32,081 nucleotides of DNA from assembly GCA_018303925.1 (NCBI GenBank), contig JAGVXF010000007.1, forward strand, positions 24,694-56,774. Reading direction: 5' to 3'. Each line of letters begins with the position of its first letter. The first letter of the stretch is position 1. The notes under the pieces are model-generated. The model did not search any database. It saw only the letters and a list, made by a program, of their open reading frames with translations, and was not told the origin of the DNA. Shown here one piece after another: positions 19,624 through 30,116 of the stretch. A program made the translations under genes and the position numbers. The stretch is from Candidatus Pacearchaeota archaeon. Lineage in GTDB: Archaea > Nanobdellota > Nanobdellia > Pacearchaeales > GW2011-AR1.

Positions 19624-19680
19624 TAAGAGGGGAAAATCTCAAATTATTTAAATCTAATCTTGTATCTATTTTAACAAACA

Positions 19681-19800
19681 AAGCAAACAAAGGGCCTATA
19701 GTTTAGATGAAAACAGCACCCAAAAACTACAGGTCAGACAAATCAAACAAAGGGCCTATAGTTTAGATGAAAACAGCACCCAAAAACTACAGGTCAGACA
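19681..19800. repeat. two tandem 60-bp repeats, each carrying the first ~14 nt of the downstream tRNA
   Basis: 19681-19740 and 19741-19800 differ at one base (aag/aat); the first 25 nt recur at 19801-19825, leading into the tRNA. Confidence 0.97.
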
Positions 19801-19811
19801 AAGCAAACAAA

Positions 19812-19883
19812 GGGCCTATAGTTTAATGGATAGAATTTCGGGTTTCGGCCCCGAAGATCTAGGTTCGATTCCTAGTAGGCTCA
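19812..19883 (+). tRNA. tRNA-Arg (TCG anticodon)
   Basis: Acceptor GGGCCTA/TAGGCTC, anticodon stem TCGGG-TTTCGGC-CCCGA, T-arm CTAGG-TTCGATT-CCTAG; numbering places TCG at 34-36. Confidence 0.88.
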
Positions 19884-19940: not shown

Positions 19941-21218
19941 ATGGAAATTGAAGAGAACTACGGAAATTACATTGAAGTTGAAATGGGAAAGGAAATTTAT
20001 GAGGGGATAATACTTCCAAGCCCTGAGGCAGGAACTTTTCTTTTAAAGCTTGACAATGGCTATAACATAGGGTTCAATAAAAAGGATGTTTTGAAAATGA
20101 AACTCATTAAAAAGATTGAAGAGAAAAAAAAGGAGTTTGAAGTGAAAATTTCAAAGGATAAACCAAATGTGGCACTTGTTATTCTGGGGGGAACAATTGC
20201 TGCGAGGCTCAATCCCGGAAAAGGTGGAGTTGATTTTGTTGAGAATCCAAAGGATCTTTTTAGATTTTATCCTGAACTTTTTGAAATTGCCAATGTGAAA
20301 AAAGTTGAAGTTCCTTTCATGAAAGGTTCTGAAAATATGGATTACAAAGACTGGAAAAAAACCGCTAAAGTAATTTGTGAGCTTGTTAATGAAAAAGAAA
20401 TCTCCGGAGTAATAGTTCTTCAGGGAACAGATACGCTTCATTATACCTCTTCGGCCTTAAGTTTTTTTTTGAATAATTTAGGGAAACCGGTTGTTTTGAC
20501 ATACTCCCAGAGGAGTATTGACAGAGGAAGTTCTGATGCAACCTTAAATTTAATCTGCTCAGCGCGTGCTGCAATCTCAAACTTTTCGGGTGTTCTTGTC
20601 GTCGGGCATGCAAATACGAATGATGAATTTTGTTTGGGAATTTCAGGTACAAAAGTCAGAAAAATGCACTCTTCAAGAAGGGATGCTTTTAAACCTGTAA
20701 ATGCCGAGCCTTTCATGAAAATTTATTCTGACAGGATTGAGAGAATTTCAGAACATTCTTTAAGAAATGAAAAAAAGAAATGTGCACTTGATAATAAGTT
20801 TGAGGAAAAAATTGCTCTTCTTAAATTTTATCCGGGGCAGAATCCGGCAATACTTGATTATTACTCTAAAGAGGGTTATAAGGGGATTGTTATTGAAATG
20901 CTTGGCCTTGGTCACGTTGCAACAAGCGGAGGAAGGTTGAGCTGGATAAAAAAATTAAAGGAAGTTCAACAGAAAGGAATTTTTATTTGTGCCGCGTCTC
21001 AGACAATTTATGGAAGGCTTAACCCCTTGGTTTATGTTACAGGGAGAGAACTTCTTGAAACCGGAGTGATTTACCTTGAAGATATGCTTGCTGAGGTGGC
21101 TTACGTAAAACTTGGATGGGTTCTTGGTCACAAAGAATGGGCTAAGTCACGCGAAACTGTTAAAGAAAAAATGCTTGAAAACATTGCTGGAGAAATTAAT
21201 AAAAGATTGGTTGAATGA
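19941..21218 (+). CDS. gatD: glutamyl-tRNA(Gln) amidotransferase subunit D
   Basis: asparaginase-like VALVILGGTIAARLNPGKGGVDF, VLQGTDTLHYTSSALSFFL; N-terminal GatD domain. Confidence 0.96.
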   Translation: MEIEENYGNYIEVEMGKEIYEGIILPSPEAGTFLLKLDNGYNIGFNKKDVLKMKLIKKIEEKKKEFEVKISKDKPNVALVILGGTIAARLNPGKGGVDFVENPKDLFRFYPELFEIANVKKVEVPFMKGSENMDYKDWKKTAKVICELVNEKEISGVIVLQGTDTLHYTSSALSFFLNNLGKPVVLTYSQRSIDRGSSDATLNLICSARAAISNFSGVLVVGHANTNDEFCLGISGTKVRKMHSSRRDAFKPVNAEPFMKIYSDRIERISEHSLRNEKKKCALDNKFEEKIALLKFYPGQNPAILDYYSKEGYKGIVIEMLGLGHVATSGGRLSWIKKLKEVQQKGIFICAASQTIYGRLNPLVYVTGRELLETGVIYLEDMLAEVAYVKLGWVLGHKEWAKSRETVKEKMLENIAGEINKRLVE

Positions 21219-21256
21219 ATGGATAAATATTAATATTACTCTTTCTTGGATAGATT

Positions 21257-21727
21257 GTGAATAAGCCAAAGTTCCCCAAAACAAGTTTGGAAGACTATTT
21301 CAAATACAGGGAAGCTCTTTTTATTAATTTATCTTCAATGATGAAAAGAGGCGAAAAAGCACGGGACATAAGAAAAGTCCTTGATAGAGTTTATGAGCTC
21401 TATAAAGCGTATTTTTTTCTAGAGGATTTTTACTCTTTTGGGAGGTTAGATGAATTGAATGATTTTTTGTTAGGCTCCAGTTTTTTTGAAAAACAATTTA
21501 TTGATGAAGCAATTTTTCATGAGAAAGAGCATATTAAAATGGCTGAAGATTTGGGTTATAATATAAAGGGGTATTCGGCTATACTTTTATTTAATTATAA
21601 AAAGAATGAGCCGTCTTTTGCTCTGCAAGTTCATATTGATTTAGATGAAAAACTCTCTTATGAGAATTTTAAGAAAATGTGTATGGCCCCAAAAAATCCA
21701 AGTTTAATTGATTTGGCATTTAAATAA
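21257..21727 (+). CDS. hypothetical protein, GTG start
   Basis: 156-aa ORF between gatD and gatE. Confidence 0.6.
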   Translation: MNKPKFPKTSLEDYFKYREALFINLSSMMKRGEKARDIRKVLDRVYELYKAYFFLEDFYSFGRLDELNDFLLGSSFFEKQFIDEAIFHEKEHIKMAEDLGYNIKGYSAILLFNYKKNEPSFALQVHIDLDEKLSYENFKKMCMAPKNPSLIDLAFK

Positions 21728-21838
21728 AATTATTTTATTTTTCTTTTATTTTAATAATCCTTAGGGAAAATTCATTATAAAGTTTTTGTTATTTTCTAAA
21801 CCGCCAAATTAATAAACTTCTTGTTTTTTCAATAGTCT

Positions 21839-23281
21839 ATGGGAATTGATTACAAAAAATTAGGTTTCAAGGCGGGTTTGGAAATTCACCAGCAGCTTGA
21901 TACTCACAAACTTTTTTGTGGATGCCCTTCAATTTTAAGAACTGATGAGCCGGCATATTTTGTCAAAAGGAAAATTCATGCTGTTGCCGGTGAATCCGGG
22001 GAAGTTGATGATGCTGCAAAGTTTCACGGGGAAAGAGATAAGGAATACTCTTATCAGGTTTATGACACAACTTGTCTTGTTGAACTTGATGAAGAGCCTC
22101 CTCATGAATTGAATAAAGAGGCTCTTAGAATTGCCTTGGAGATTTGTGTCTTTTTAAACTGCAAAATATTTTCTCTGTCTCAGATTATGAGAAAGACTGT
22201 TGTTGACGGGTCAAACACTTCCGGGTTTCAAAGGACCGTTTTAATTGCGCGTGACGGATACATTGAGACTTCAGAAGGAAAAGTGGGAATTGATTCGGTT
22301 TACCTTGAAGAAGATTCAGCAAGACCAGTTGAAAGAAATGAAAAAAGTGTTGTTTACAGGCTTGACCGGCTTGGGATTCCTCTTGTTGAAATTTCCACCA
22401 ATCCCGATTTAAAGTCAGCGTCGCAGGTTAAAGAAGCTGCTTTGAAAATTGGGGAGATTCTTAGAAGTGCAAAAGTTAGAAGGGGAATAGGGACGATAAG
22501 ACAGGACATGAATATTTCAATTAAGGGAAGCAGCCGGGTTGAAATAAAAGGTTTTCAGGATCCAAAGATTATGGAAAAGTGCGTTGAAACCGAGGTTTTT
22601 CGCCAAAAAAGTTTTTTAGATAAAGGTGAAAAGAATCCCAAGGAGGTCAGAAATTGCATGCCTGACGGAACAACTGAATTTTTAAGGCCAATTCCAGGGC
22701 CCGCGAGAATGTATCCCGAGACTGATTTGCCACTCCTTCACATCTCAAAGGACATTGTAAATGATGCAAAGAAAAATCTTCCAAAACTAAAAGGTGAAAT
22801 TGAGGAAGAATTAAAAAAACATGGGCTTGATGAAGAAAACATAAAGTTGATTTTGAAAGGCAATAAACTTGATGAATACCGGGAATTTTATGAAATTAGC
22901 GGAAATCCAAAATTGATTTCAAAACTTCTTATTTTGTTTCCAAAAGAGATTGCAAAAAAATCAGGGAAAAGTTTAGATGAAATCAGGGGTATTCTGACAA
23001 GAGATGTTTTGGTTTTTGTTCTTGAGGCAGTTTACAAGGAAAAAATTCAGGAAAAAGATGTGAAGCATGTTTTGGAAAAAATTGTTTCAGGAAGCCCATT
23101 GATTGATGCAATAAAACTTGACAAAAAAGATTTGGTTGGTGTTGAAGAAGAAATAATGAAAATAGTTAAAGGAAAACCTGGACTTTCTCCTAACGCATAT
23201 ATGGGCCTTGTTATGAAAGAATTTAGAGGTCAGATTAACGGTGAAGAAGCAATAGAAATAATAAAGAAGTTTTTGAAGTAA
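21839..23281 (+). CDS. gatE: glutamyl-tRNA(Gln) amidotransferase subunit E, apparently lacking the GAD insertion
   Basis: GFKAGLEIHQQLDTHKLFCGCPS; VEIKGFQDPKIMEKCVETEV...PDGTTEFLRPIPGPARMYPETDLP; only 480 aa. Confidence 0.95.
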   Translation: MGIDYKKLGFKAGLEIHQQLDTHKLFCGCPSILRTDEPAYFVKRKIHAVAGESGEVDDAAKFHGERDKEYSYQVYDTTCLVELDEEPPHELNKEALRIALEICVFLNCKIFSLSQIMRKTVVDGSNTSGFQRTVLIARDGYIETSEGKVGIDSVYLEEDSARPVERNEKSVVYRLDRLGIPLVEISTNPDLKSASQVKEAALKIGEILRSAKVRRGIGTIRQDMNISIKGSSRVEIKGFQDPKIMEKCVETEVFRQKSFLDKGEKNPKEVRNCMPDGTTEFLRPIPGPARMYPETDLPLLHISKDIVNDAKKNLPKLKGEIEEELKKHGLDEENIKLILKGNKLDEYREFYEISGNPKLISKLLILFPKEIAKKSGKSLDEIRGILTRDVLVFVLEAVYKEKIQEKDVKHVLEKIVSGSPLIDAIKLDKKDLVGVEEEIMKIVKGKPGLSPNAYMGLVMKEFRGQINGEEAIEIIKKFLK

Positions 23282-23336
23282 TTTTTTAATGGTGACAAAT
23301 AGAAAGTTTTATAAAGTTTAAAATTTTAAAGTCGGC

Positions 23337-24020
23337 ATGGCAAAAATATATGTAGAAGAAAAGAATAGGGAGAGGGTAGAGAACTATCTAAAGTCTGTTG
23401 ACTTGAATTATTCTTTTGAAAAGGATTTTACTGAAAATGAGGATTTGAAGGGTTTTGACTATGTCTCTTCAATAAACTTGTATGTGGCTAAAGAGAAGAA
23501 ACTTTATGGTAAAAACTGGTACGAATCTCACAAGGAACTTCAAAAAGAAGGAGAAAAAATGCTTACAACCCTCGAATTTATTGAATATTTAAAATATGTG
23601 AAAGTCAACAATAAAGATATTTATGATGAAATCACCAAAGTGAAAAATCCATGGAGAGCAGAATGGCTTGATGCAGATTTTAAGGTAAAAAATGGAGAGT
23701 TATATGTTAATTACAATCACATTTTTGACGGCAATGGAAAACTTGTCAAATGTGATTCAGAAGTTCTTGATAAAAATACTTTAATGAAAGATAAAACTCC
23801 CGGAATTTCGTTGGAAGATTATTTAGAGAAGAACCATACTTCTCAAGGTTTTCCTAATAAAGAAGTTAAATCAGGAGATTTATGTTACTGGTTTCCAAGA
23901 AGGGATAATAATTCAGTCGTGAGGTTCCTTGCCTTTGAGGATAGGGCCTTTCTCTACTGCGACAGGTATCCGTCTCGTAGGGGCGGCTATCTTGGGGTAC
24001 GCGCCGCAAGGCGCGAGTAA
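23337..24020 (+). CDS. DGR target (variable) protein with a C-terminal hypervariable lectin/FGE-like segment
   Basis: C-terminus VVRFLAFEDRAFLYCDRYPSRRGGYLGVRAARRE is encoded by the VR; TATA-like tttataaa about 25 nt upstream of ATG. Confidence 0.93.
   Translation: MAKIYVEEKNRERVENYLKSVDLNYSFEKDFTENEDLKGFDYVSSINLYVAKEKKLYGKNWYESHKELQKEGEKMLTTLEFIEYLKYVKVNNKDIYDEITKVKNPWRAEWLDADFKVKNGELYVNYNHIFDGNGKLVKCDSEVLDKNTLMKDKTPGISLEDYLEKNHTSQGFPNKEVKSGDLCYWFPRRDNNSVVRFLAFEDRAFLYCDRYPSRRGGYLGVRAARRE
23917..23999 (+). repeat. DGR variable repeat (VR)
   Basis: 83-nt ungapped alignment with TR at 24276-24358 (offset 359); 16 mismatches, all at TR adenines. Confidence 0.96.
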
Positions 24021-24043
24021 GGCTTTGCTCGCGGGCAAGGGAG
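24000..24043 (+). promoter_or_regulatory. structured VR 3' flank, candidate DGR target-recognition hairpin(s)
   Basis: CGCGCC-GCAA-GGCGCG (24000-24015, perfect 6-bp stem) followed by GCGAG-taaggctttg-CTCGC; homologous flank present after the 4591 remnant. Confidence 0.7.
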
Positions 24044-24098
24044 TTGAACAATACTTTTCTAAACGCAAAATTTTTTAAAAGAATTTCTTTTTAGATAT

Positions 24099-24153
24099 TG
24101 TGTCCTGGAGATTTTACATTTTCTTGAGCAAAGAATGTAAAAAAGGACTACAC
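24099..24153 (+). ncRNA. stem-loop between VR and TR, candidate structured part of the TR RNA
   Basis: gtcct(24102-24106)/aggac(24144-24148) enclosing tttacatt(24113-24120)/aatgtaaa(24134-24141). Confidence 0.5.
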
Positions 24154-24275
24154 GTCAGTTTACTAGCACATTGTTTAAATTTATTTTAAGTCATGAAATT
24201 CAACTTTGACAATCCAAAAATTGAAAAAGTGGTGGCTAACTTTAAGTTAGATAATTGGTAAACTGGCTATATGAT

Positions 24276-24358
24276 TCGTGAGGTTCAATGCCAATGAGGA
24301 TAGGGCCAATCTCAACTGCAACAGGAATCCGTCTAATAGGAACGGCAATCTTGGAATA
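24276..24358 (+). repeat. DGR template repeat (TR)
   Basis: tcgtgaggttcaatgccaatgaggatagggccaatctcaactgcaacaggaatccgtctaataggaacggcaatcttggaata; rich in AAY codons in the VR frame. Confidence 0.96.
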
Positions 24359-24385
24359 GTCTTAATCCAGGACTAAATATTCAGA

Positions 24386-25429
24386 ATGGAACAAAAAATC
24401 TATGAAGAGATAATTTCTTTAAGAAATTTAATTCTTGCTTATAAAAAGACAAGAAAAGGAAAAACAAAAAGAGATTATGTGAAAAAATTTGAAAAGAATT
24501 TGGTTTGTAATCTTAAGAAATTGTATGAAGAATTGAAAAATCAAATTTATCAACCAAAACATTTGAGGGTATTTATCTTGCGTGATCCAAAGACCCGCAA
24601 AATTTCAAAATCAGATTTTAGGGATAGGATTGTCCATCATGCTTTATGCAATATCATTGAATCAATCTTTGATAAAACGTTTATTTTTGATTCATGCGCG
24701 AACAGAATTGGGAAGGGGACTTTGTTTGCTCTTAAAAGATTTGAGAAATTCAGAAGAAAAGTAACCAGCAACTTCACTTCTGAGGGGTTTTGCTTTAAGG
24801 CGGACATTAAACATTACTTTGAAGAGATTAATCATAAAATTTTGCTTGAAATAATCAAAAGAAAAGTTAGGTGTGAAAAAACTATTTGGCTCATAATCCA
24901 AATACTCAATAACAAGGTTGATCTAGAGAGAGAGAGACGTGGTCGAGATAGTAATAAAGGAATGCCGTTAGGCAACTTAACGTCGCAATTTTTTGCAAAT
25001 GTTTATCTTAATGAACTTGATAAATTTGTGAAATATAAATTGAAAGCAAAGTATTACATTAGGTATGTTGATGATTTTGTTATTTTGCACAAATCAAAAA
25101 AGCAATTGGAGGAATGGAAAAAGAAAATTGAAGTCTTTCTTAAAGAAAAATTGGTCCTTGAACTTCATCCTGACAAGTCAAGGATTATTAATTTGTCAAG
25201 GGGAGTTGATTTTGTTGGTTTTAGGAATTTTTATCATCATATATTATTAAGAAAAAGAAATATTAAAAATATGGAAAGAAAAATTAATCTACTTAATAAA
25301 TGGGGAATTTCTTATGAAAAACTTCTTGAATCATTTCAGGGTTGGAACGCTTATGCAAAATGGGCAAATTCTTATAGTTTAATTAAACATTTTTCAGGAC
25401 AAATTTCAAGAGTTAAAATAATAACTTAA
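24386..25429 (+). CDS. DGR-type reverse transcriptase
   Basis: RT motifs FKADIKHYFEEINH, GMPLGNLTSQFFANVYL (SQ variant of the usual QGxxxSP), YYIRYVDDFVIL, plus adjacent TR/VR. Confidence 0.96.
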   Translation: MEQKIYEEIISLRNLILAYKKTRKGKTKRDYVKKFEKNLVCNLKKLYEELKNQIYQPKHLRVFILRDPKTRKISKSDFRDRIVHHALCNIIESIFDKTFIFDSCANRIGKGTLFALKRFEKFRRKVTSNFTSEGFCFKADIKHYFEEINHKILLEIIKRKVRCEKTIWLIIQILNNKVDLERERRGRDSNKGMPLGNLTSQFFANVYLNELDKFVKYKLKAKYYIRYVDDFVILHKSKKQLEEWKKKIEVFLKEKLVLELHPDKSRIINLSRGVDFVGFRNFYHHILLRKRNIKNMERKINLLNKWGISYEKLLESFQGWNAYAKWANSYSLIKHFSGQISRVKIIT

Positions 25430-25475
25430 TTTTCCCTACAGAAACTATTAAAAATCTTCTATTTCTTTTCTATTC

Positions 25476-26933
25476 ATGTTAAGGACGCACACAATTGGAG
25501 AAATAAATGAAAAACTCATAGGAAAAAAAGTCACGCTTTGCGGATGGGTTGATACAATTCGTGAGCATGGAAATGTCATTTTCATTGACCTTCGTGATAG
25601 ATATGGAAAAGTTCAGACAGTTATACATAAAAAAATTCCTGATTTTAGCGAAGTCAAAAAATTAACCATTGAATCATGCGTGCAGTTGGAAGGGGAAGTT
25701 AAAGTGAGGCCGAAAGGGAGTGAGAATAAGGAATTAGAATCCGGAAAAGTTGAGTTGTCTATAAACAAATTAAACATTTTCTCTCTTGCAGACCAATTGC
25801 CTTTTAATATGGAGAAAGGAGAAGAAGTTGCAGAGGACATTAGGCTCAGGTATAGGTATCTTGATTTGAGGAGGCCTAAAATGATTAATAATTTAAGTGT
25901 GAGACATAAAGCAATTAACTTTATAAGAGATTACCTTGATAAAAGGAAATTTTTAGAGATAACCACCCCTATTTTGACAAAATCTTCCCCTGAGGGGGCA
26001 AGAGATTTTATTGTTCCTTCAAGGATTCATCCTGGAAAGTTTTATGCTTTGCCTCAGAGTCCGCAACAATATAAACAACTTTTGATGATTGCCGGAATTG
26101 ATAAATACTTTCAGATTGCCCCTTGCTTTAGGGATGAAGATGCACGGGCAGACAGAAGTCCTGGTGAATTTTACCAACTTGACCTTGAGATGAGTTTTAT
26201 TACACAGGAAGAGCTTTTGAATTTAATAGAGGAACTATTTATTAAATTAACAGAAGAAATTTTTCCTGGAAAAAGAATAACTAAAATTCCTTTTCCGAAT
26301 CTTTCTTATGAAGAGGCAATGAAAAAATACGGGACTGATAAACCGGATTTGAGAGAAAATAAAGACGACCCTGATGAATTGGCTTTTGCATGGATTATTG
26401 ATTTTCCCCTTTTTGAAGAAGAAAAAACGGATGGGCATTATGCACCAATGCATCATATGTTTACCCGTCCAAAAGATGAAGACTTAAAATATTTAAATGA
26501 TAAAGATTCCCATAAAGTCAAATCTTATCAGCATGATCTTGTTTTAAATGGGGTTGAAGTTGGCGGAGGCTCGATAAGGATTCATGATCCTCTTATTCAG
26601 GAAAAAGTTTTTAATCTTATAGGGTTTACACAAAAAGAAAAAAAATATTTCTCGCATATGCTTACCGCTTTTAAGTATGGAGTTCCTCCACATGGAGGAA
26701 TTGCCCCTGGAATTGACAGGCTTATTATGGTTATGCTGGGGGAGTCTTCTATTAGGGAATTAATCGCATTTCCTAAGAACAGGGAAGCCAGGGACGTCAC
26801 TTTTAATGCGCCTGATGATATAACCGAAAAGCAAATGAAAGAAGTTCATATTAAATTGGACATTAAAAAAGAGAAGAAAAAAGCCCCTGAGAAAAAGAAA
26901 GGTCCTGTGAGAAATAAGAAGGAAAAGAAGTAA
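25476..26933 (+). CDS. aspS: aspartyl-tRNA synthetase, bacterial-type but without the GAD insertion; Lys-rich C-terminal tail
   Basis: LRTHTIGEINEKLIGKKVTLCGWVDTIREHGNVIFIDLRDR; APCFRDEDARADRSPGEFYQLDLEMSF; GTDKPDLRENKDDPDELAFAWIIDFPLFE; GVPPHGGIAPGIDRL. Confidence 0.96.
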   Translation: MLRTHTIGEINEKLIGKKVTLCGWVDTIREHGNVIFIDLRDRYGKVQTVIHKKIPDFSEVKKLTIESCVQLEGEVKVRPKGSENKELESGKVELSINKLNIFSLADQLPFNMEKGEEVAEDIRLRYRYLDLRRPKMINNLSVRHKAINFIRDYLDKRKFLEITTPILTKSSPEGARDFIVPSRIHPGKFYALPQSPQQYKQLLMIAGIDKYFQIAPCFRDEDARADRSPGEFYQLDLEMSFITQEELLNLIEELFIKLTEEIFPGKRITKIPFPNLSYEEAMKKYGTDKPDLRENKDDPDELAFAWIIDFPLFEEEKTDGHYAPMHHMFTRPKDEDLKYLNDKDSHKVKSYQHDLVLNGVEVGGGSIRIHDPLIQEKVFNLIGFTQKEKKYFSHMLTAFKYGVPPHGGIAPGIDRLIMVMLGESSIRELIAFPKNREARDVTFNAPDDITEKQMKEVHIKLDIKKEKKKAPEKKKGPVRNKKEKK

Positions 26934-26944
26934 GGTTCAAAAAA

Positions 26945-27094
26945 ATGAAAAAAGAAGATTTAATTGAAACGATTGAAATACTTTCAGATTATAAAACTAT
27001 GAGGGGTATATCTAAGGGTTTAGAAGATTATAGAAAAGGGAGATTTAAAATGCTTAACGAATTTAAAATAGAAATGAAGAAAGCTCCAAAATAA
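26945..27094 (+). CDS. small ORF, 49 aa, possibly antitoxin-like
   Basis: MKKEDLIETIEILSDYKTMRGISKGLEDYRKGRFKMLNEFKIEMKKAPK, read directly from sequence; not in the ORF track. Confidence 0.45.
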   Translation: MKKEDLIETIEILSDYKTMRGISKGLEDYRKGRFKMLNEFKIEMKKAPK

Positions 27095-27122
27095 TTAAAA
27101 ACAACATTCTTTTTGTTTATCT

Positions 27123-28475
27123 ATGCTTAAAGTGGGGCTTGAAATTCATGGTTATCTAAATACGAATGAGAAGTTATTTTGCAGATGCAAGGTTCTCCAT
27201 GGGAAAAAGCATAGTGAATCCAATGTGAATATTTGTCCTGTTTGTACAGGGCAGCCCGGTTCTAAGCCACTTTTACCAAATACTGAAGCTGTCAAGAAAG
27301 TTATTGAAATTGCAATAATTCTGGGATGCAGGATTTCTCCGGAAGGTTTGTGGCAAAGAAAGCACTATTCGTGGCCTGACCTTCCTAAAGGATTTCAGTC
27401 GACAATTTCAGGGCCCCATTCAGTTCCAAGCGGAACTGGGGGAAAATTTATGGGAATAAGAATTAAAGAATGCCATCTTGAAGAGGATCCGGCGGCTTGG
27501 AACCCCATAACCGGTGAAGTTGACTATAATCGTTCCGGAGCTCCGCTTGTTGAGATTGTGACTGAACCCGATTTTAAAACAAGTGAAGAAGTGGTTTCAT
27601 GGCTTGGAAATTTAATGAGCACCTTGAGTTATGTTAGTGCGATTGACAAAAAATCAGGACTAAAAGCTGACGTGAATGTTTCAATTACGGGAGGAGAGAG
27701 GGTTGAAATAAAAAATATAAATTCATTTAGGAAAATAAAAGAAGCAATTGATTTAGAGTTTACAAGACAGGAAAAAAATCCTCCAAAAATTGAGGAAACC
27801 AGAACTTATGACGAAGAGAAAAAAATGACTGTTTTGATGAGAACAAAAGATTCTGCAATGGATTACAGATTTATAAGCGAGCCGGATTTGCCGGTTTTAA
27901 AAATTTCTCAAGTTTTAATAAATGAAATAAAGAAATCAATTCCGAAGCTTCCTTTTGAAAAAATGAAAAAGTTAGTGACAAAGTATAAAATTGAAAAAAG
28001 ATATGCAGAGATTTTAACAAAGAGATTAAGTCTTGTTGAATTGTTTGAGGAACTTGTAAAAAAAGTAAAACCAGAAATTGCAATCCCGTGGGTTAGTGTT
28101 GAACTTTTGGGAGTCGCAAATTATAACAAAATGGATGTTGATGAGATTGATATAAATCCAGAACATTTTACTAAACTTCTTCTGGCGGTTGAATCAGGAA
28201 AAATAAGCGAGCTTAAAGCAAAGGACATTCTTAGGGGATGGGCAAAGGGTTCAAGCCCTCCAGAAAAAGAAATTGAAGAAGGCAAAAAAATTGAACTAAA
28301 AGAAATTGATAAAATTGCAAAAGAAGTGATAAAAGAAAATGAAAAAGCAGTTAAAGATTATAAGGCCGGACAGAAGAATTCCTTAAACTTTTTAATCGGA
28401 GAAATAATGAAAAAATCCGGTAAGCGCGCCGGATTTAAAGAAACAAGGGAGGCCCTTCTTGGAATTTTAGGATAA
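27123..28475 (+). CDS. gatB: Asp/Glu-tRNA amidotransferase subunit B
   Basis: VGLEIHGYLNTNEKLFCRCK, CPVCTGQPGSKPLLN-like, RIKECHLEEDPAAWNPITGEVDYNRSGAPLVEIVTEPD. Confidence 0.97.
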   Translation: MLKVGLEIHGYLNTNEKLFCRCKVLHGKKHSESNVNICPVCTGQPGSKPLLPNTEAVKKVIEIAIILGCRISPEGLWQRKHYSWPDLPKGFQSTISGPHSVPSGTGGKFMGIRIKECHLEEDPAAWNPITGEVDYNRSGAPLVEIVTEPDFKTSEEVVSWLGNLMSTLSYVSAIDKKSGLKADVNVSITGGERVEIKNINSFRKIKEAIDLEFTRQEKNPPKIEETRTYDEEKKMTVLMRTKDSAMDYRFISEPDLPVLKISQVLINEIKKSIPKLPFEKMKKLVTKYKIEKRYAEILTKRLSLVELFEELVKKVKPEIAIPWVSVELLGVANYNKMDVDEIDINPEHFTKLLLAVESGKISELKAKDILRGWAKGSSPPEKEIEEGKKIELKEIDKIAKEVIKENEKAVKDYKAGQKNSLNFLIGEIMKKSGKRAGFKETREALLGILG

Positions 28476-28735
28476 TGGGATTTTTATATAAAAAACTTTC
28501 AGAAAAAGATAAAGAAGAAATAAAAAAGGAGGCAAAGAGAATTATGGATTCCTTTGGTAAAAAGCTATCCAAAATAAAAGAGCTTCCAAAAGAAGGTTCA
28601 ATTAAAAGAGAAAATTCAATAAGGGAAGAGGGTCCGGGAAAAGATGGAAGTCCTGATTTCAAGAAAAGGATTTTAGAAAATGCCCCAAATAAAAATAAAG
28701 ATTTTATAATCGCGGAGAAAAAAGGATGGGAATGA
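28475..28735 (+). CDS. gatC: Asp/Glu-tRNA amidotransferase subunit C-like
   Basis: LSEKDKEEIKKEAKRIMDSFGKKLSKI...ILENAPNKNKDFIIAEKKGWE, between gatB and gatA and overlapping the gatB stop. Confidence 0.75.
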   Translation: MGFLYKKLSEKDKEEIKKEAKRIMDSFGKKLSKIKELPKEGSIKRENSIREEGPGKDGSPDFKKRILENAPNKNKDFIIAEKKGWE

Positions 28736-28778
28736 CTTTTCCGCGAAATTTAAATAAATTCAAATCAGATAATAAGGA

Positions 28779-30116
28779 ATGGTAGAGAAAATGACAACAC
28801 TTGAAAAACTTAAAAAATATCTGGAAAAAATAAAAGAGAAAGATAAAGATTTGAATATCTTTTTAGAAGTTCGGCCTGAAAGCGAATTAATTGATGAAGC
28901 AAAAAGAATAGATGAGAAAATAAAGGATGGAAAAGCGGGAAGGCTTGCAGGCTACGTAATCGGGGTAAAACCAAATATAAATGTTGTCGGGTTTCATGCG
29001 TCGTGTTCTTCAAAAGTTCTCGAGGATTATAAGTCGACTTATGATGCAACAGTTATAAAAAAGATAAAAGAAGAAGACGGGCTTATAATTGGGATGGTTA
29101 ATTCCGATGAGTTTGCCTGCGGTTCTTCTGGAGAAACCTCTGCATATGGTCCGGTTAAAAATCCAGTTAACCCCGAATTAATTCCTGGGGGGTCATCCTC
29201 AGGTTCAGCGGCTTGCATTGCCGCAGGCTTTTGTGATATGGCTTTGGGCTCAGATACAGGGGGATCAATAAGAAATCCTGCGTCACATTGCGGGGTTGTT
29301 GGAATAAAGCCAACTTATGCAAGTGTTTCAAGGCATGGTTTAATTGACCTTTCTATGAGTTTTGATCAGATTGGGCCAATTGCTAAAAATGTTCATGATG
29401 CCACCCTTCTTCTTGACGTGATAAGGGGAAAAGATGAAAATGATTCTATAAGTCTTGAGAGTGGAAAATTGAATTTAAAAGAACTTGGAAAAAAGAAAAA
29501 GTTTAAAATTGGAATTTTGGATTTTAAAATTCAGGATGAGCGCATTCAAAAATTAATTGATGAAAAAGTAAAAGAAATCTCTAAAAAATACGGCTGGAAT
29601 GTGAAAAAGGTCAGGATTGAATATATTGATACTGCAATTGAAACTTATTATCCTATTGTTTACACCGAGTTTTTTTCTGCGACAAGAAAGTTTGATGGAA
29701 GAAAATACGGGAAAAAAATTGAAGACTCATGCGGTCCTGAAGTTTTAAGAAGAGTTCTTGGGGGTGCTGAAATAACCCGCTCAGAGCATGAAGGAAGAAA
29801 TTATTATCTTGCTCTTCGTGTAAGAAAATTAATTGAAGAAGAGTATGCCCGCGCTTTCAAGGAAATGGATATTATAATTTCTCCGACGGTCCCGCGACTT
29901 CCCCATAAAATCGGAGAAAAAATAACCATAGAAGAAATGTATTCTTATGACGCATTAACGATTCCCTCAAACCTTGCCGGAAACTGTTCAATGAGTGTTC
30001 CCGTCGGAAAAGTGGACGGGATTCCTGTAGGAATGCAAATTATGGCTGATAAATTTCAGGAACAAAAGATGCTTGAAGTGGGTGCATTGGTGGAAGGTTT
30101 TGGAGAAAGAAGATGA
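28779..30116 (+). CDS. gatA: Asp/Glu-tRNA amidotransferase subunit A
   Basis: amidase signature GGSSSGSAACIAAGFCDMALGSDTGGSIRNPASHCGVVGIKPTYASVSRHGLIDLSMSFDQIGP. Confidence 0.97.
   Translation: MVEKMTTLEKLKKYLEKIKEKDKDLNIFLEVRPESELIDEAKRIDEKIKDGKAGRLAGYVIGVKPNINVVGFHASCSSKVLEDYKSTYDATVIKKIKEEDGLIIGMVNSDEFACGSSGETSAYGPVKNPVNPELIPGGSSSGSAACIAAGFCDMALGSDTGGSIRNPASHCGVVGIKPTYASVSRHGLIDLSMSFDQIGPIAKNVHDATLLLDVIRGKDENDSISLESGKLNLKELGKKKKFKIGILDFKIQDERIQKLIDEKVKEISKKYGWNVKKVRIEYIDTAIETYYPIVYTEFFSATRKFDGRKYGKKIEDSCGPEVLRRVLGGAEITRSEHEGRNYYLALRVRKLIEEEYARAFKEMDIIISPTVPRLPHKIGEKITIEEMYSYDALTIPSNLAGNCSMSVPVGKVDGIPVGMQIMADKFQEQKMLEVGALVEGFGERR

Follow-up and report, generated by a model that had tools for sequence, protein, structure and literature searches.

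A DPANN archaeal DGR whose template repeat is adjoined on its 5' side by an RT-16 RNA

Diversity-generating retroelements (DGRs) rewrite the end of a protein by miscopying adenines. Among described systems, the nanoarchaeal DGRs of DUSEL4 carry an IMH that reads TGGGGT and an IMH* that reads TGGAAT (Paul et al. 2015, PMC4372165). In the DGR of Bordetella phage BPP-1 the avd coding sequence is located 5' of the template repeat (TR), and a structured 3' spacer recruits bRT-Avd and primes the cDNA (PMC3240598, PMC12875486). The trailing RNA found 3' of the TR in this phage is about 200 nt long (PMC8867640).

The window analyzed here is the whole stretch of 32,081 nt taken from a contig of a Candidatus Pacearchaeota archaeon (assembly GCA_018303925.1). 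The genome of this DPANN archaeon, 636 kb in 25 contigs and with an assembly completeness of about 91%, encodes three DGR-type reverse transcriptases (RTs), one in the window (C21) and the other two in C3 and C14. The cassette of the window is arranged, all on the plus strand, as a target gene with a C-terminal variable repeat (VR), a non-coding leader, the TR and the RT (Table 1). It very probably constitutes a complete nanoarchaeal (DPANN) DGR with a template RNA organized by a 5' scaffold.

Table 1. Features of the DGR cassette, in positions of the window
Feature	Position	Strand	Basis
DGR target gene, 227 aa, VR at the extreme C-terminus	23337..24020	+	ORF; homologous genes of relatives are DGR targets
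Variable repeat (VR), 14 hypermutated adenines and the GG discriminator	23917..23999	+	Alignment to TR
IMH core TTGGGGTA, discriminator GG at 23996-23997	23992..23999	+	Comparison of relatives; motif as in Paul 2015
GC-rich DNA hairpin CGCGCC-GCAA-GGCGCG, immediately 3' of VR	24000..24015	+	Hairpin scoring
Leader 5' arm GTCCTGGA, partner 24366-24373	24102..24109	+	Covariation; MFE fold
RT-16 RNA (Rfam RF03019), full model 1-158, 3' end one base before TR	24112..24275	+	80.6 bits, E 4.9e-13
Leader 3' arm AGGACTA, partner 24357-24363	24144..24150	+	MFE fold; covariation
Template repeat (TR), 83 nt, 27 A	24276..24358	+	Alignment to VR
IMH* discriminator AA (GG in VR)	24355..24356	+	Comparison of relatives
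Post-TR strand GTCTTAATCCAGGAC, partner of both leader arms	24359..24373	+	Covariation; MFE fold
DGR reverse transcriptase, 347 aa	24386..25429	+	RVT_1 and phrog_1423 matches; motifs

The VR/TR pair is the only one of its kind in the whole genome, as the A-masked pattern matched just two places with up to three mismatches. In C14 one TR is accompanied by two VRs, while the VR partner of the C3 TR was not found, probably on account of the contig end. Judged by look, the region around the DGR (19941-30116) holds genes resembling those for an asparaginase/GatD, a GatB/GatE domain protein, an aspartyl/asparaginyl-type tRNA synthetase, a second GatB and GatA; two genes of this run were tested with profiles. 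Three 60-nt tandem units at 19675-19854, each containing the 5'-most bases of the tRNA-Arg(TCG) gene (19812-19883), are partial duplications of the tRNA 5' end. Another tRNA, on the minus strand at 75-178, was detected by Rfam and not by ARAGORN, and its length of 104 nt suggests an intron.

An ungapped re-alignment of VR and TR at an offset of 359 gave 16 mismatches, all of them at TR adenines, as had been reported before; the 56 non-A positions of the TR are identical in the VR, with no substitution at C, G or T. The TR is composed of 27 A, 17 C, 21 G and 18 T, and its homology with the VR ends at both edges of the 83 nt. Sixteen of the 27 adenines are changed, eight to T, six to G and two to C. 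The earlier note had put the chance that all mismatches fall on A at about 1e-8, a with-replacement estimate; the low chance stands, with an exact hypergeometric value of 2.5e-10. The changes are also distributed by codon: 14 of the 18 adenines in AAY codons are altered in this VR and, with the discriminator described below excluded, none of the other seven (six in AGG, GAG or GAT codons plus the last A of ATA). In the archaeal set, first positions of AAY are changed in 76% of cases, second positions in 41% and other adenines in about 40%.

The same signature was observed in relatives, which were found through their RT and belong mostly to the DPANN (Pacearchaeota, Nanoarchaeota, Woesearchaeota), with some candidate-phylum and other bacteria. 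In the 80 TR/VR pairs compared, changes are found at 1202 of 2171 TR adenines and at 25 of 5261 other bases. When VRs have a TR in common, nearly all differences among them lie at TR adenines; the two VRs of C14, for instance, differ at 15 of them and at two other positions. There is next to no probability that VR and TR resemble each other by chance or as a coding repeat, with an A bias of the substitutions that has nothing to do with reverse transcription, given the mismatch distribution, the RT encoded next door and the presence of the signature in dozens of independent loci. We found no point in favour of such an origin, and the comparative data exclude it. Independent backing for adenine-specific mutagenic retrohoming, the DGR reading already proposed for this locus, comes from the RT encoded alongside, from the IMH/IMH* pair and the hairpin that follows the VR, and from dozens of relatives that show the same signature.

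Two of the 16 differences have another origin. The two located at the 3' end, where the TR reads GGAATA and the VR GGGGTA, recur almost everywhere in the archaeal clade. The first discriminator A occupies the third base of a GGA, AGA, CGA or TCA codon in nearly all loci and is replaced by G in 36 of 41 cases, always silently. Since this first change is silent (GGA to GGG in the window), selection on the protein cannot fix it. On the comparison of these sequences, the terminal AA/GG is the target-site discriminator of the IMH*/IMH pair and not a random outcome of hypermutation. One could suppose instead that AA/GG arose by ordinary hypermutation and was then fixed because the target protein was under selection, as adenines of this clade are replaced most often by G and the resulting GTA or GTG encodes the Val of a conserved LGV. 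This is scarcely credible when G is still found in 36 of 41 cases of a change that leaves the amino acid untouched (GGA/GGG, AGA/AGG, CGA/CGG, TCA/TCG), when AAY dinucleotides become GG in only 17% of cases, and when the adenines at -2 and -4 of the AA are never changed. These upstream adenines were altered in 0 of 10 cases at -2 and -4 versus 25 of 44 (57%) at -5 to -8 (p = 0.001); the only two adenines found at -1 are both G in the VR and were counted with the discriminator block. With AA/GG taken as the discriminator, the bases downstream of about -5 are apparently left out of the transfer, and the sequence would show where transfer ends, in the interval from -4 to -6 relative to the AA. 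Exceptions to AA/GG are a small subfamily (L012, L018, L042, L053, L057) and L028, while GG is present in C14, L010, L070 and L072 alike. A discriminator pair of this kind is already known; it is extended here to most of the archaeal set and found to be silent at its first position.

Because two of the 16 differences belong to the discriminator, 14 are left to count as hypermutation, and all 14 fall on A, among the 25 remaining adenines (p = 2.4e-9). The earlier statement that the 16 differences are products of the last retrohoming thus holds for 14 of them and fails for the two nearest the 3' end, near-fixed in the archaeal clade and silent at the first position. Hypermutation can in this way be separated from a fixed discriminator in VR/TR comparisons, and two of the 16 changes are not diversification. 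It had also been argued, from the lack of secondary decay, that the last retrohoming was recent. Recency was not demonstrated: zero non-A mismatches were counted in 58 of the 80 TR/VR pairs. An undecayed pair is therefore the usual case and gives no date for the last event, and the 56 non-A sites bound divergence only at about 5%.

The cassette might also be a dead relic with a VR that no longer changes. Such relics apparently exist in this same genome, as contig C17 carries a fourth RT-16 RNA (L118:45-245) followed by a decayed TR-like sequence and has no listed RT match. We regard this as unlikely for the window, where the RT frame is intact with both catalytic motifs, the target frame, the IMH, the hairpin and the RT-16 RNA are all intact, and non-A drift is zero.

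The RT itself matched RVT_1 (E 2.3e-22) and phrog_1423 (E 1.2e-116) and scored below the cut-off of group II maturases. DGR-type RTs are characterized by the motif [ILV]GxxxSQ; here LGNLTSQ is found at residues 195-201 and YVDD at residues 227-230. The accessory protein Avd is encoded by many DGRs, not by all. Inspection of the cassette ORFs revealed none suitable for an Avd-like gene between target and RT. A search of the genome, in its approximately 91% complete assembly, with the Avd profile PF05635 gave no match, and neither did its positive control.

No Pfam, NCBIfam, PHROG or PDB match was obtained for the target ORF by sequence and profile searches. Its homologues in relatives, with 17 to 63% identity, are DGR targets as well. 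The C-type lectin (CLec) fold is known for the nanoarchaeal AvpA (PMC5006420). A Foldseek search with the AlphaFold model of the target gave no significant match, and C-type lectins appeared among the non-significant rows only, the model being weak over the VR part, where pLDDT is below 50 (residues 189-227). The DNA hairpin that follows the VR has no comparable counterpart after the TR. Across the loci, a GC hairpin with a score of 10 or more lies within 60 nt after the VR in 52% of cases versus 1.3% of shuffles, and TR flanks reach a score of 7 at most. Soon after the target stop codon, within 24020-24070, there is a GCTCGC-GGCA...GTTGAACAA-like element that is common to close relatives.

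The 164 nt that precede the TR correspond to a full-length RT-16 RNA, with a covariance model score of 80.6 bits versus a gathering cut-off of 50. This RNA scored above the cut-off in almost all archaeal DGR loci that were tested. In 45 of 47 loci its 3' end falls -8 to +3 nt relative to the TR start, with a median of 0; the two remaining loci show gaps of +23 and +35 and have TR/VR alignments shorter than usual. Among 95 relatives, RT-16 was detected in 31 of the 37 genomes with an RT match and in none of the other 58 (Fisher 2e-19), the RT matches being only partial or weak in the six RT-match genomes that lack it. In the phylum as a whole it was found in 83 of 284 genomes, compared to 0 of 14 control genomes. 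As the loci were mostly found through the RT, the adjoining of TR and RT is partly a selection effect; the RT-16 and covariation results are independent of this way of locus selection.

If RT-16 were a mere 5' leader regulating the RT gene, its closeness to the TR would follow from the TR lying just upstream of the RT, and the collinear, tight arrangement of RT-16, TR and RT in the window fits such a role. We consider this reading highly improbable. In L012, L018 and L042 the RT-16 RNA and the TR are kept together 3' of the RT and on the opposite strand, in a convergent arrangement, which indicates that RT-16 goes with the TR and not with the RT; these loci rule out a mere RT-gene leader. Moreover, the RT-16 of C17 stands beside a decayed TR-like sequence on a contig with no listed RT match, and the 3' end of RT-16 tracks the TR within a few nucleotides. 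The TR and the two long-range helices around it are both absent from the Rfam model of RT-16, reportedly from Weinberg et al. 2017. Neither the link between RT-16 and DGRs nor the two helices were found in the literature searched; the Weinberg work lay outside it and may already mention DGRs.

These two helices connect the leader with the sequence past the TR. The strand of helix 1 located ahead of the first hairpin of RT-16 is complementary to the distal part of the post-TR strand, and the AGGACTA of helix 2 is complementary to the part nearest the TR. An unconstrained MFE prediction for the window contains both helices. In 52 loci, the duplex between the leader and its own post-TR strand had a mean energy of -20.2 kcal/mol versus -13.9 with the strands of other loci, and the mean was reached by none of 20000 permutations. 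This cross-locus permutation retains the conserved motifs, and related loci lift the mismatched score, which makes the test stricter. Controls gave -11.4 for shuffled post-TR sequences and -12.3 for other stretches of the same leader, and the true pairing was better than the shuffles in 50 of the 52 loci. With a register that was set from motifs or positions, independently of complementarity, covariation amounted to 0.354 for helix 1 (0.232 shuffled, at most 0.216 when slid) and 0.534 for helix 2 (0.268 shuffled, at most 0.240 when slid). A competitor to the long-range helices exists, as local pairing between the two GTCC/GGAC arms of the leader is also possible. Since both helices join the leader to the sequence just after the TR, the TR is placed in a closed loop. 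The terminal helix of RT-16 is formed by 24156-24163 with 24257-24266, just 5' of the TR.

Based on these features we infer the direction of transfer, the binding of the RT, the start and stop of the cDNA and the activity of the cassette, as follows. The TR RNA would be copied by the RT in a manner error-prone at adenines, and the mutated cDNA would replace the VR. Transfer would halt a few nucleotides before the 5' end of the IMH core, leaving the VR with its GG and the TR with its AA, a difference that would mark the VR as target and the TR as donor. With RT-16 abutting the 5' end of the TR and its foot paired through the two helices with the 15 nt directly after the TR, the TR would form a loop closed at its 3' end, next to the IMH*, by helix 2 and on its 5' side by the RT-16 terminal helix. 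This fold may bind the RT, present the 3' end of the TR as the start of the cDNA and stop copying at the TR 5' end. The 5' scaffold could in this manner do the work of the 3' spacer and Avd in BPP-1. A computed RNA family, RT-16, would thereby gain a concrete job as part of the archaeal DGR template RNA, and the model predicts how a DGR could work with neither Avd nor a long 3' spacer, in a compact layout of about 280 nt of RNA plus one RT.

A different RNA was observed in two bacterial DGR loci, where RT-14 (Rfam RF02921) is located just 3' of the TR (L065:3832-3967 and L102:3284-3425). Like RT-16, it is an RT-associated RNA of Rfam adjoining a TR. Its position is 3' of the TR, where BPP-1 has its spacer, whereas that of RT-16 is 5', and RT-14 may correspond to RT-16 as a scaffold on the 3' side. 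Its location in these two loci supports the view that the RT-numbered RNAs include DGR template RNAs.

Compared with the DUSEL4 DGRs (PMC4372165), the window has in common the IMH/IMH* pair, the hairpin after the VR, several DGRs per small genome and orphan target genes. The hairpin loops differ, being a GCAA tetraloop in the window and a GRA triloop in DUSEL4. Avd-sized ORFs are drawn between target and RT in DUSEL4, whereas in the window this interval is occupied by the RT-16 RNA and holds no ORF of such size. We found no mention of this RNA fold in the available part of the text of Paul et al. 2015 (PMC4372165). DGRs and the discriminator are known; what appears new here is that RT-16 belongs to the DGR template RNA, together with the two helices. 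With the BPP-1 DGR (PMC3240598, PMC12875486) the window shares the RT, the TR/VR pair, adenine mutagenesis, the direction-setting IMH/IMH* and the DNA hairpin after the VR, which is a requirement of the BPP-1 target. The window departs from BPP-1 in having no avd-like ORF, only 27 nt from TR to RT and a structured RNA 5' of the TR. We are somewhat inclined to regard the DPANN DGRs as a distinct mechanistic class, free of Avd, with an RT-binding and template-defining RNA (RT-16) 5' of the TR and two long-range helices that loop it. In such a class, RT-16, and probably RT-14, would be DGR template RNAs, and the start and end of the mutagenized cDNA would be set by helices in place of the protein and 3' spacer.
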